The translations under genes and the position numbers were made by a program. A DNA stretch of 17,266 bases from Rubrobacteraceae bacterium (GTDB lineage Bacteria; Actinomycetota; Rubrobacteria; Rubrobacterales; Rubrobacteraceae), in NCBI GenBank assembly GCA_030447045.1, contig JAUJMB010000015.1:1-17266 (forward strand), read 5' to 3'. Shown in pieces: positions 331 to 4,414 of this stretch; the first letter of the stretch is position 1; every line of letters begins with the position of its first letter. The notes beneath the pieces were generated by a model. It was not told where the DNA came from, did not search any database, and was given only the letters and a program-made list of their open reading frames with translations.

Positions 331-1050
331 CTAGGAAGCCCGCGTCCGCCCGAACTCCTGCGCCTTGAATCGCCTTCCCGTCACCCCTCCTGACTCGTCC
401 GAGGCCAGGTAGAGGAAGACGGCGGTGTTCTCTTCCGGGGTGATGCGCGTCTGGGGGTCCTCTTCGGGGTAGGCGGCGGCGCGCATGGCGGTGCGCATCC
501 CGCCGGGGTCCACGGCGTTGGAGCGGATGTTGCGGCCTTCGAGCTCGGCGGCCAGTATCTGCGAGAGTCCTTCCATCCCGAACTTGCTGACGGAGTAGGC
601 GCCCCACTCGGCGCGGCCCTCGACGCTGACGCCACTCACGACGTTGATGATCGAAGCCCCCTCGCGCAGGTGGGGGATGGCCGCCCTGGAGACGAGGTAG
701 GGGCCGGTGAGGTTCGCGTCGAGCACACGCCGCCACTCCTCCTCGGGGTACTCTTCTATGGCGACCCTTGGCCCGAGAAGGCCCGCGTTGTTGACGAGGA
801 CGTCGATCCCCCCGAATCGTCCGACCGCTTCGTCCACCAGCCGCTTTGCGTCCTCGCCCTTCGACACGTCCGCGGCGACGGCGAGCACCTCAGCACCTAG
901 CCCTTCGACCTCCTCGGCCACGGGCCGGATGCCCTCCTCGCCGCGGGAGTTGACGACGAGCGAGGCGCCCTCCTTCGCGTAGGCGAGCGCGAGCGCCCTC
1001 CCGAGACCCTGGCTCGCGCCGGTGACGAGGGCGACTTTACCTTGCAGCAT
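331..1050 (-). CDS. Short-chain dehydrogenase/reductase (SDR)
   Basis: A 239-residue classical SDR, an NAD(P)-dependent oxidoreductase with a Rossmann fold. Visible motifs are the cofactor-binding TGASQGLG (residues 10-17), D61-V62 contacting the adenine, NNAG (87-90), catalytic Ser139, and the YxxxK pair Tyr152/Lys156. The DPGGM segment after the active site is also typical. The open frame extends much further upstream, but I chose the ATG at 1050 because the family's N-terminus (MLQGKVALVTG) starts exactly there and is preceded by GGAGG about eight bases away. The length is normal for the family. Substrate cannot be told from the sequence; the C-terminal tail after the last conserved segment is short and arginine-rich. 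It stands alone on the minus strand between the sortase and a long non-coding stretch. Confidence 0.9.
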   Translation of the reverse strand: MLQGKVALVTGASQGLGRALALAYAKEGASLVVNSRGEEGIRPVAEEVEGLGAEVLAVAADVSKGEDAKRLVDEAVGRFGGIDVLVNNAGLLGPRVAIEEYPEEEWRRVLDANLTGPYLVSRAAIPHLREGASIINVVSGVSVEGRAEWGAYSVSKFGMEGLSQILAAELEGRNIRSNAVDPGGMRTAMRAAAYPEEDPQTRITPEENTAVFLYLASDESGGVTGRRFKAQEFGRTRAS

Positions 1051-1899
1051 GTACGAACCTCCGGTTCTTGGCGATCGGCCGTCAGCCGTCAGCTTAAACT
1101 CTTCTCGTCGAAGCGTCGCGCACGCCGATGGGACCCGAGCGCGCTCGCAGACGAACGGACGGGTCAATCCCCGCGGGCACAGGCGCGCCCGGATACGTCT
1201 TGTCCCCGGGAGCTGAAGGATTAAAGCTGGCGGCTCCACTGCAATCCTTCGAGATGGAGGAGCGCAAGGTTCGTGAGGCCGGGGAGCTAGCCGAGACACG
1301 TAGGCGGAAAAAGCCGGGCCGCTTGACCTGGGAGGGGGGATACAGGACGCGCTCCCGGCTTCTCGGCGGGTATTGTAATGCCGAGAAAGGCCCGCGCGCA
1401 TACCCCAAATGGGGGATTTTCTCGGCGGTCGCTGTGTGTTTCGATGGGGGCCTGGGGGGGAAGAGGGGCCGCAGGCGAGCGGCCCCTCCCTTCTCGTGTG
1501 GCGAAACCGCGCGGTTGCCCCAAGCCTCTACACGAGAGGGCCCGGGTAATGCGGCAATGCCGGGAGCGTATGGGCCGTGACGTCCGGACGCCATACGCGC
1601 TTCGGGCCACCTCTGCGAAAGGCGCTGACGGCGGTGCCCAACGACGATCTCTCGCGACCCCGGGTGCTCGTCTTTGCGGAGGAAGTTCGTGCGTCAACCC
1701 GCTTCGGGAGCCCGACGCTCCCGTAGGATACCTTCGTAGACCGCCTGGCTTGTCGGGACCTTTCCCTTCGGGCCGGGTCCCCCTGGCTTCATCGCGTGGG
1801 TGGACCGAAGGCGGATGACGGTTCGTCGTACTGCAATCCTTCGCCACGTAGCGTATAAAGGGATCGTGAAGCGCCGATATCCAGAGAGGACCTCTCCCC
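1051..1899 (+). other. Long gene-free region with hairpin array (candidate structured RNA or leader)
   Basis: About 850 bases lie between the divergent SDR and regulator genes. Open frames here have arginine- and proline-rich, family-less translations and look like shadows. The part from about 1355 to 1785 is packed with exact inverted repeats: 1360-1367/1380-1387 (8 bp), 1463-1472/1479-1488 (10 bp, 6-base loop), 1489-1499/1530-1540 (11 bp with one G-U, enclosing a second hairpin 1500-1508/1513-1519), 1541-1545/1560-1564, 1566-1573/1591-1598 (8 bp), 1705-1711/1717-1723 (7 bp) and 1755-1760/1776-1781 (6 bp). Four of these follow each other with at most one unpaired base. The single wobble pair reads as U-G only in the plus-strand RNA, which weakly favours plus-strand transcription. 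I did not recognise RNase P RNA, tmRNA, SRP RNA or a known riboswitch. Confidence 0.5.
1854..1859 (+). promoter_or_regulatory. Candidate -10 box for the FNR-type regulator
   Basis: TATAAA lies 40 bases ahead of the regulator start in otherwise GC-rich DNA. No good -35 hexamer is seen at 17 bases; instead the 14-base repeat ACTGCAATCCTTCG (1830-1843) covers that position, which could suit activator-dependent initiation. A transcript starting 6-7 bases downstream would have a leader of about 34 bases carrying the GAGAGGA ribosome site at 1884-1890. Confidence 0.5.
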
Positions 1900-2652
1900 G
1901 TGTACGGTGAGAACGCGCCGCCTTCCTGGGCGCGGTTGCCGGGGGCGCGGTGCCGGGCGGTGGAGCACCTGACCAAGCTCGAGGGGCTCAAGGAGTTCGA
2001 GCTTTTGGAGGGGCTCGAAGAAGGGTTCTTCCAGGCGCTCGCGATCTCGGCCGAGGTGCTCGAGCTCGGCGCTGGCACCACGCTCTACCGGGAGGGCGAA
2101 CCTTCCGGGGCCGTGTACTTTGTGCGCGAGGGGCGCGCCAAGCTCTACCGCTCCTCCGGTGGGCCGAAGGCGCGAGACCAGATCCTCGGCGTCGTCGGCG
2201 ACGGCTCGGTCCTCGGCCTCGGCGCGGCCCTCGAGGGCCGCCCGCAGAGCCAGGGCGCAACGGCGCTTACCGACTGCGTGCTCTACGCCGTGTTCCGCGA
2301 CGACCTCTTCGACGTCATGGGCCGCTTCCCAGGGGGCGCCGTCCGCCTGAACCGGGTCCTCGCCGTCCGCGCCCGCGAGCTCGAGGACCTCATAGGCGAC
2401 CTGGTCTTCCGCAGCGCCCCGCAAAGGGTGGCCCGCATGCTCCTGAACCTCGCCACCGAGGAGGGACGCGTGACCAAGCGGGGCGTGGTCTTCGAGCCCT
2501 CGCTCTCGCGCCAGGAGATGGCCGAGGCCACCGGCATCTCGCGCGAGGCCCTCTCCCGCGCCCTCTCCCGCCTCGCCCAAGAGGACATCCTGGACCTCGA
2601 CGGCAAGACCGTGACCATCCTTAAGCCGGCCGAGCTCCGCTCCCGTACCTGA
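1900..2652 (+). CDS. CRP/FNR-family transcriptional regulator
   Basis: A 250-residue regulator with an N-terminal cyclic-nucleotide-type beta-roll (about residues 36-135, including EGEPSGAVYFVREGRAKLY), a long dimer helix (about 148-165) and a C-terminal winged helix-turn-helix (about 200-241). The recognition helix SREALSRALSRL contains E216-x-x-S219-R220, the ExxSR signature with which FNR-type proteins read TTGAT half sites. There is no N-terminal cysteine cluster (only Cys18 and Cys126), so it should not hold an FNR-type Fe-S cluster; a haem, redox or other ligand is possible. The GTG start at 1900 follows GAGAGGA by nine bases. A matching TTGAT-N4-ATCAC site lies 37 bases past its stop, ahead of a ferredoxin gene, so control of that gene (and perhaps redox metabolism) is a reasonable inference. 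Specific identity is not assignable. Confidence 0.9.
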   Translation: MYGENAPPSWARLPGARCRAVEHLTKLEGLKEFELLEGLEEGFFQALAISAEVLELGAGTTLYREGEPSGAVYFVREGRAKLYRSSGGPKARDQILGVVGDGSVLGLGAALEGRPQSQGATALTDCVLYAVFRDDLFDVMGRFPGGAVRLNRVLAVRARELEDLIGDLVFRSAPQRVARMLLNLATEEGRVTKRGVVFEPSLSRQEMAEATGISREALSRALSRLAQEDILDLDGKTVTILKPAELRSRT

Positions 2653-4294: not shown

Positions 4295-4307
4295 AGGGGT
4301 ACAAACA

Positions 4308-4400
4308 ACCGGGGAGCCGCGAGGCTGAGAGGGCAGAGGGACCGAGAGGTCCGGAGCCGACCCGCTGAACCTGATCCGGGTAATGCCGGCGCAGGGAGAT
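4308..4400 (+). promoter_or_regulatory. TPP riboswitch (THI element) 1
   Basis: The THI-box landmarks appear in order: GGGGAGCC, then GGCTGAGAGG (P2 and the pyrimidine-binding CUGAGA), a P3 arm with the hairpin 4339-4343/4348-4352, then CCCGCTGAACCTGATC, GGGTAAT and GCCGGCGCAGGGA (P4/P5, binding the pyrophosphate). This aptamer binds thiamine pyrophosphate and lowers expression of genes downstream. It lies immediately ahead of thiT and the kinase-like gene. The P1 closing helix is not obvious from the flanking bases. Confidence 0.97.
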
Positions 4401-4414
4401 AAGAGAGTCTCGTC

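Follow-up and report, generated by a model that had tools for sequence, protein, structure and literature searches.

6C RNAs (RF01066), which belong to the Actinobacteria, are defined by two hairpins with C-rich loops. In M. tuberculosis, 6C has been reported to base-pair with mRNAs via these loops, without chaperones (PMC7308464), and extra 6C copies are reported from some mycobacteria (PMC9569102). The family that we describe here, from the Rubrobacterales, is similar to 6C in having C-rich loops (PMC9569102), but it often has a single hairpin, with CCCCCCUCC(U) in the loop, and it has a predicted operator of its own. In the alpha-r14 RNAs ("cuckoo", RF02344), the anti-Shine-Dalgarno motif CCUCCUCCC is described as unpaired in hairpins with differing stems, a conserved upstream stretch is thought to control expression, and one member, NfeR1, is reported to act on ntrB by pairing with its translation start (PMC10746234). 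Our family resembles alpha-r14 in its unpaired anti-Shine-Dalgarno motif and its conserved upstream stretch, but alpha-r14 RNAs have three hairpins and are from a distant phylum (Alphaproteobacteria).

The loops of CcsR1-4 contain CCUCCUCCC as well. CcsR1-4 are described as a multi-copy, stress-related group of sRNAs in Rhodobacter sphaeroides (PMC10253847). Unlike the present family, they are co-transcribed with ccaF1, have an RpoH promoter, and are processed by RNase E. RsaA of the Firmicutes is reported to be Sigma-B-dependent (PMC3961350). RNAs of the RsaA / RsaE type are similar to ours in that a C-rich segment pairs (or, here, would pair) with Shine-Dalgarno sequences, but their lineage and structure are different: in the Rubrobacterales, one hairpin would be both the seed and the terminator. 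By analogy, the family's mode of action would be that of 6C and alpha-r14, which are also C-rich sRNAs.

Rubrobacter is a deep branch of the actinobacteria and is heat and radiation tolerant. Our literature search on riboswitches and small RNAs in Rubrobacter found no sRNA paper for this group by title or by the start of the abstract.

A predicted small RNA gene

We analyzed a stretch of 17,266 nucleotides from a Rubrobacteraceae bacterium (the window). The original prediction was that a dense array of hairpins at 1355-1785, upstream of an FNR-type regulator, is an unknown structured RNA on the plus strand. We read the locus as follows:

331-1050, minus strand: short-chain dehydrogenase (SDR) gene, adjoining the element (Pfam PF00106)
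1305-1365, minus strand: predicted small RNA of about 60 nt, starting near 1365 (computed from the -10) and ending at the U-tract (R3 match; -10 and U-tract of the family)
1308-1312, minus strand: U-tract UUUUU after the stem, partly pairing into the stem (sequence; T count in the family)
1308-1364, minus strand: hairpin with 11 bp, internal loops, 3 and 4 bp, and a 12-nt loop; the terminator stem in this reading (fold and covariation)
1331-1342, minus strand: C-rich loop UAUCCCCCCUCC with the anti-Shine-Dalgarno-like CCUCC (fold; CCTCC count)
1372-1377, minus strand: -10 hexamer TACAAT, 31 nt from the dyad centre (sequence)
1400-1417, no strand: dyad ATACCCC-AAAT-GGGGGAT, 18 bp, with 6 of 7 positions symmetric; a probable activator operator, centred at about -42/-43 of the predicted start
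1463-1488, no strand: 10-bp GC hairpin of the originally predicted array, with a positional counterpart in close copies (alignment)
1489-1598, no strand: other stems of the main array; no homologous DNA found by blastn
1900-2652, plus strand: Crp/Fnr-type regulator gene, divergent from the predicted sRNA (Pfam PF00027 and PF13545)

We consider it probable, from sequence comparisons, that positions 1417-1305 on the minus strand are an activator-controlled gene for an sRNA of about 60 nt with an anti-Shine-Dalgarno loop. A dimeric activator would bind the dyad at 1400-1417, and RNA polymerase, recruited to the -10 at 1377-1372, would start transcription near 1365 and stop at the U-tract behind a single hairpin. 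The resulting RNA would be about 60 nt long, and its one hairpin would be both the terminator and the effector. The loop UAUCCCCCCUCC could then pair with G-rich ribosome-binding sites in mRNAs and block translation or alter stability; across the family, the loops would present CCCCCCUCC(U) to G-rich leaders. Comparison among genomes supports a covarying hairpin, a -10 and a U-tract on one strand only, a fixed spacing from operator to -10, and the presence of the operator before protein-coding genes; transcription, the activator, the mRNA targets, and the anti-Shine-Dalgarno action are what we infer. As for the features that mark C-rich anti-Shine-Dalgarno sRNAs, CCUCC is unpaired in the loop of the window fold, and the element has its own promoter and intrinsic terminator as sequence signals only. 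We do not claim that fnr is controlled by this element, because it is some 400 bp away from the fnr promoter.

A conserved family in Rubrobacterales

When we compared 1100-1829 to 39 Rubrobacterales genomes with blastn, 5 genomes had matches. There are eight of these; they are short, and the majority fall within 1310-1423. The intergenic copies have a common order on the plus strand: a GC hairpin whose loop is G-rich, then ATTGTAnTACC, and then CATACCCCAAATGGG. Starting from the window element, we built covariance models (R1, R2, and R3) from a growing set of copies. R3 identified 88 places in 35 of the 39 genomes (E <= 0.01), and some of these places are the dyad only. In the window, R3 scores 73.1 bits at 1304-1438, a match that we read on its opposite strand, and there is no second match below E 4.

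We also ran R3 across 396 genomes that were sampled evenly from the phylum, with stricter filters that lose weak matches. R3 matched 35 of these genomes, including 34 from the 39-genome set; the single match outside that set is one weak place in G300 (E = 0.0047). The window element is most likely one member of a multi-copy family that is restricted to the Rubrobacter-type lineage. A distant blastn search with 1100-1900 gave no match to a plasmid and, in the capsid gene of a phage, one match of 39 bp; the family's motif was not found in viral contigs.

For the analyses below, we aligned 50 of the 88 R3 places and the window (51 rows). Five of the 51 rows have no hairpin, and leaving these out gives 46 hairpin-bearing copies from 24 genomes and the window.

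The conserved part at 1304-1420 is mostly beside the array that was originally predicted. The stems of that array are real (every named stem is present at its stated position), but mostly the wrong ones had been chosen. Allowing one wobble, the region 1355-1785 contains three stems of 10 bp or more that do not overlap each other, versus 0.16 +- 0.42 in 100 dinucleotide shuffles, none of which reached three. There are four stems of at least 8 bp (1.8 if shuffled, and 5 of 100 shuffles reached four) and six of at least 7 bp (4.1 if shuffled, and 14 of 100 reached six). So the longest stems do exceed chance, but the 5-bp stem at 1541-1564 and the 7-bp stems at 1705-1723 and 1755-1781 do not on their own. 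Folded as a whole, the region is slightly better than shuffles on the plus strand (z -1.69, 4 of 100 shuffles as good); on the minus strand, z is -0.54 and 33 of 100 shuffles are as good. No convincing coding frame was expected here, and the four overlapping ORFs have no match in Pfam. As for conservation in relatives, most of the stems fail: blastn of 1100-1829 against the 39 genomes gave no match inside 1489-1598 or 1755-1781 at E <= 0.01, and the sole match touching the 1705-1723 stem overlaps it partially (33 nt at 1711-1743, from G007, E = 0.006). Within the array, the hairpin at 1463-1488 is alone in having a counterpart at the corresponding position of close copies. At this place, L031, L037, and L051 have a GC hairpin and then TTTT on the plus strand, which is terminator-like.

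The hairpin and its loop

Covariation among relatives is found in the hairpin family at 1304-1420. In the conserved inner part (1313-1359), 88.9% of cells in the 51 aligned matches are paired, and 11 of the 11 modelled pairs change on both sides. The both-sided changes amount to 67 cells, versus 21.4 +- 3.6 in shuffled data, and sliding the partner by one column lowers the pairing to 41-50%. The alignment was fitted to the hairpin structure, so these numbers favor that structure. Stem variants include GCCGGGC/GCCCGGC, GTCGGGC/GCCCGAC, and GGTCGG/CCGACC. The minus-strand fold of 1303-1366 has a free energy of -26.9 kcal/mol, with a z of -2.6; 3 of 200 shuffles fold equally well. CCTCC is present in 42 of the 46 hairpins, compared to 15.6 in shuffles.

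The window copy has one hairpin. C-rich hairpins occur as tandem pairs in L205, L206, L196, L197, and L200, with z from -0.97 to -4.03; the folds of L205 (z -1.87) and L206 (z -0.97) are weak. We also considered a pseudoknot between the G-run of the loop and the C-run of the dyad, and dropped it after inspection by eye because copies with an altered C-run keep the loop.

Strand

We assigned the element to the minus strand because the -10, the U-tract, and the operator spacing are all on that strand. Among the 46 copies, the 30 nt before the hairpin on the minus strand contain a -10-like hexamer with a z of 6.6 over shuffles, versus -2.0 on the plus strand. The hexamer is TACAAT in 11 copies, TAGAGT in 6, CATAAT in 6, and other forms in the rest. 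The 9 nt after the hairpin on the minus strand are 55% T, and at least five of these nine are T in 33 of 46 copies, versus 2 of 46 on the plus strand and a background of 1.8%. In many copies, the tail is pyrimidine-rich and is not a pure U-run. These counts are non-independent of the search, as the model includes the A-rich and ATTGTA positions. We did not identify a -35 element.

The main alternative is that a structured RNA (a riboswitch or a long non-coding RNA) is transcribed from the plus strand and runs toward fnr, which is what was first proposed. A covarying hairpin would be expected from such an RNA too, and if all 11 pairs are read on the plus strand, there are 28 G-U versus 12 A-C wobbles. 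(Across the nine interior pairs, there are 8 and 10, so wobble pairs leave the strand undecided, and they do not favor minus.) Also, many copies are 5' of a plus-strand gene; these include eight copies, in eight genomes, that precede genes whose products begin with a receiver domain (crude gene calls). However, there is no -10 signal before the hairpin on the plus strand, T-rich plus tails are found in just 2 of 46 copies, the spacing from dyad to -10 is fixed on the minus strand, and, by eye, there is a AATAGAAT-like promoter between the element and the receiver-domain genes. We consider a plus-strand RNA unlikely, and we gave up the idea of a plus-strand riboswitch once the -10 and the U-tract proved to be one-sided. 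The plus-strand transcript of 300-500 nt that was originally envisaged becomes a minus-strand transcript of about 60 nt in our reading. What survives of the unknown structured RNA is a conserved and covarying hairpin without an Rfam match at the cut-off; its strand and its place do not.

The operator

In the predicted minus-strand gene, the dyad lies beyond the -10. Its form in the family is AT-N5-AAAT-N5-AT, and in many copies there is a second dyad 24 bp further out, which is not evident in the window copy. The distance from the centre of the dyad to the -10 is 30 nt in 18 copies and 31 nt in 15 copies (33 of 46, with the dyads picked by a heuristic score). The distance from the -10 to the hairpin varies from 3 to 22 in the same 46 copies. 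If the -10 is chosen freely between the dyad and the hairpin, then 30 of 40 are at 30/31 nt, compared to a mean of 1.5 and a maximum of 6 in shuffles. Activators that are centred near -42 occupy the class II position, which is established for CRP/FNR-type promoters.

The search that gave the 46 copies used a model containing these same positions, so we tested sites that were found by the dyad alone. The dyad pattern (up to 2 mismatches) occurs 125 times in 28 of the 39 genomes, versus once for the reversed control. We read 31 of the 125 matches, which lie within 30 fetched loci. The best -10 is at 30/31 nt in one direction for 24 of the 31 sites (shuffles: mean 1.6, maximum 5) and in the other direction for 2. 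R3 had also identified nine of the 31; among the other 22, 17 have the -10 at 30/31 nt. This test is independent of the R3 model for the operator and the -10 only.

At 8 of the 31 sites, a C-run/CTCC match is within 130 nt downstream. Of 19 other dyad sites, 18 have a reading frame behind them (called by a script and crude). We searched ten of these 18 frames against Pfam: RTX-type calcium-binding repeats are found in three, a fourth is a trypsin/PDZ protein, RDD, GYD, FAD-binding, and BTAD domains occur in one each, and two have no family. The same operator would precede protein-coding genes as well. We also considered that the dyad might be a terminator on the plus strand. We rejected this because the commonest form, ATCCCCC/GAGTGAT, is mismatched and because the distance to the minus-strand -10 is fixed.

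Genomic context and mobile elements

As predicted, a FNR-type regulator is downstream on the plus strand: the gene at 1900-2652 has Crp/Fnr-type domains. Its protein is 95% and 96% identical to proteins from two uncultured Rubrobacteraceae genomes (L001 and L002). In relatives, the sequence before fnr is conserved from about 1831 onwards (window numbering). In the window, some 780 bp separate the SDR gene from this conserved stretch. We measured the SDR-fnr gap in 18 relatives, and in most of them it is about 140-290 bp in total. The gap is longer, and filled with unrelated sequence, in L001, L012, L017, and L026. This sequence differs from one to another, and so does the sequence 5' of fnr in L003, L010, and L011; some of the gap sequences have open frames, one of which appears by eye to be recombinase-like. 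It is possible that the SDR-fnr gap is a hot spot for insertions in these relatives.

Alternatively, the family could be a mobile repeat of the REP or MITE kind, with palindromes that play no part in regulation. An exact 14-bp direct repeat, ACTGCAATCCTTCG, at 1238-1251 and 1830-1843, bounds window positions 1238-1843, and its second copy is the start of the conserved pre-fnr stretch. A repeated 14-mer of any kind is found in just 5 of 1,000 shuffles of 1051-1900, so this repeat may mark an insertion. Several copies of the family are present in G033 and in G001, with some adjoining transposase genes or inverted repeats (crude gene calls), and one variant copy (A-type, see below) is between identical 66-bp repeats. 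On the other hand, copies precede homologous receiver-domain genes in eight genomes, the spacing from operator to -10 is fixed, and the Y1 transposase that is associated with REP elements (PF01797) is found in 3 of 39 genomes (G011, G013, and G016), none of them the copy-rich G033 or G001. We rejected a REP/RAYT repeat on this last ground, and we think it improbable that the family is a mobile repeat of any such kind.

Known RNA families

At Rfam's gathering score, the sole match in the whole window is a TPP riboswitch at 4300-4414 (RF00059, 62.3 bits); by eye, translations of the genes after it resemble thiamin transport and synthesis. No family reached its cut-off over the hairpin region, and the original prediction likewise named no known RNA class. 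With E up to 5, a search of 1080-1960 gave a match to Magnesium-II at 1489-1586 on the plus strand (24.4 bits, cut-off 40, E = 0.02), which we take to be due to chance because the underlying stems have no homologs. In three other loci that contain copies or the motif, all matches were sub-threshold.

The models for 6C and alpha-r14 do not list the window region at E <= 5. Among 13 loci that we scanned for alpha-r14 (RF02344), one copy, L200, has a match on the minus strand that is far from the cut-off (24.1 bits versus 58.8, E = 1.9), which is a weak negative. Also, alpha-r14 RNAs have three hairpins, each with an unpaired CCUCCUCCC, while the copies in Rubrobacterales have one or two, with CCCCCCUCC(U) in the loops. 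For 6C, none of the 39 genomes is over the cut-off; this test is weak because none of 14 control genomes passed the cut-off either (C. glutamicum did have a match, below it). It is quite improbable that the family is a diverged member of 6C: it is in the same phylum and has C-rich-loop hairpins, with two in tandem in L205, L206, L196, L197, and L200, but the window copy has one hairpin, and the 7 places with 6C matches at E <= 1 (in 6 of 39 genomes) are at other places than our copies. As the copies do not satisfy the Rfam models of either 6C or alpha-r14, we file the family under neither. From these searches, the Rubrobacterales family most likely consists of C-rich sRNAs with their own operator and is not recognized by any catalogued RNA family.

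A possible regulon

We ran Pfam on four of the eight receiver-domain genes that follow copies and on five other neighbors. All four have receiver, PAS, and HisKA_3 domains; three also have HATPase, and the fourth is cut by the end of the locus. These kinase genes lie beyond the dyad as seen from the hairpin, so the predicted sRNA and the kinase would be divergent (by eye), and they could share one dyad.

Some copies, which we call A-type, have the same kind of hairpin without the dyad; these are strong in G001, G002, and G033. In 5 of 11 A-type copies, the minus-strand leader contains GTTTG-N-GGGTA, which we take to be a sigma-B-like motif. Model R1 gives the window hairpin just 6.3 bits (E = 1.4), so the kinship of A-type copies to the window element rests on alignment by eye. 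At most A-type loci, there is a second hairpin about 120 nt from the first, and its loop is complementary.

A broader scenario, which we offer as speculation and think more doubtful than not, is that RNA makes up one arm of an as yet undescribed regulon in Rubrobacterales. A single dimeric activator, for which a NarL/LuxR-type response regulator would fit given the dyads and the neighboring kinases, would turn on genes for secreted and membrane proteins and, through the same operator, one-hairpin anti-Shine-Dalgarno sRNAs that damp translation; sister hairpins would be expressed from sigma-B-like promoters, and the second hairpin about 120 nt off, with its complementary loop, might be a built-in sponge. 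The 125 operator matches provide a candidate regulon. As a promoter, an operator, an effector loop, and a terminator are all predicted for the family, control by sRNAs in Rubrobacter becomes directly testable. If the loops act as we propose, then C-rich anti-Shine-Dalgarno loops arose in yet another lineage.

We also note some other repeats at these loci. The complementary hairpin loops of A-type loci match over about 10-12 nt (CCCCCTCCTAGG / CCTAGGAGGGGG), for instance at L082 2665-2900, L087 8289-8498, and L081 6594-6797. A dispersed repeat of 40-65 bp around CACTCGGGTGAATAGAC occurs at L082 118-182 and 2932-2994, L088 4596-4661, L093 6294-6358, and elsewhere; perhaps it is a common type of promoter. 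The inverted repeat TTCTTATGT...ACATAAGAA is right before several copies (L031, L037, L047, and L051) and perhaps represents the ends of a small mobile element. In L085, the identical 66-bp direct repeats that flank one A-type element are at 376-441 and 730-795, and an open frame at 825 resembles a transposase by eye.
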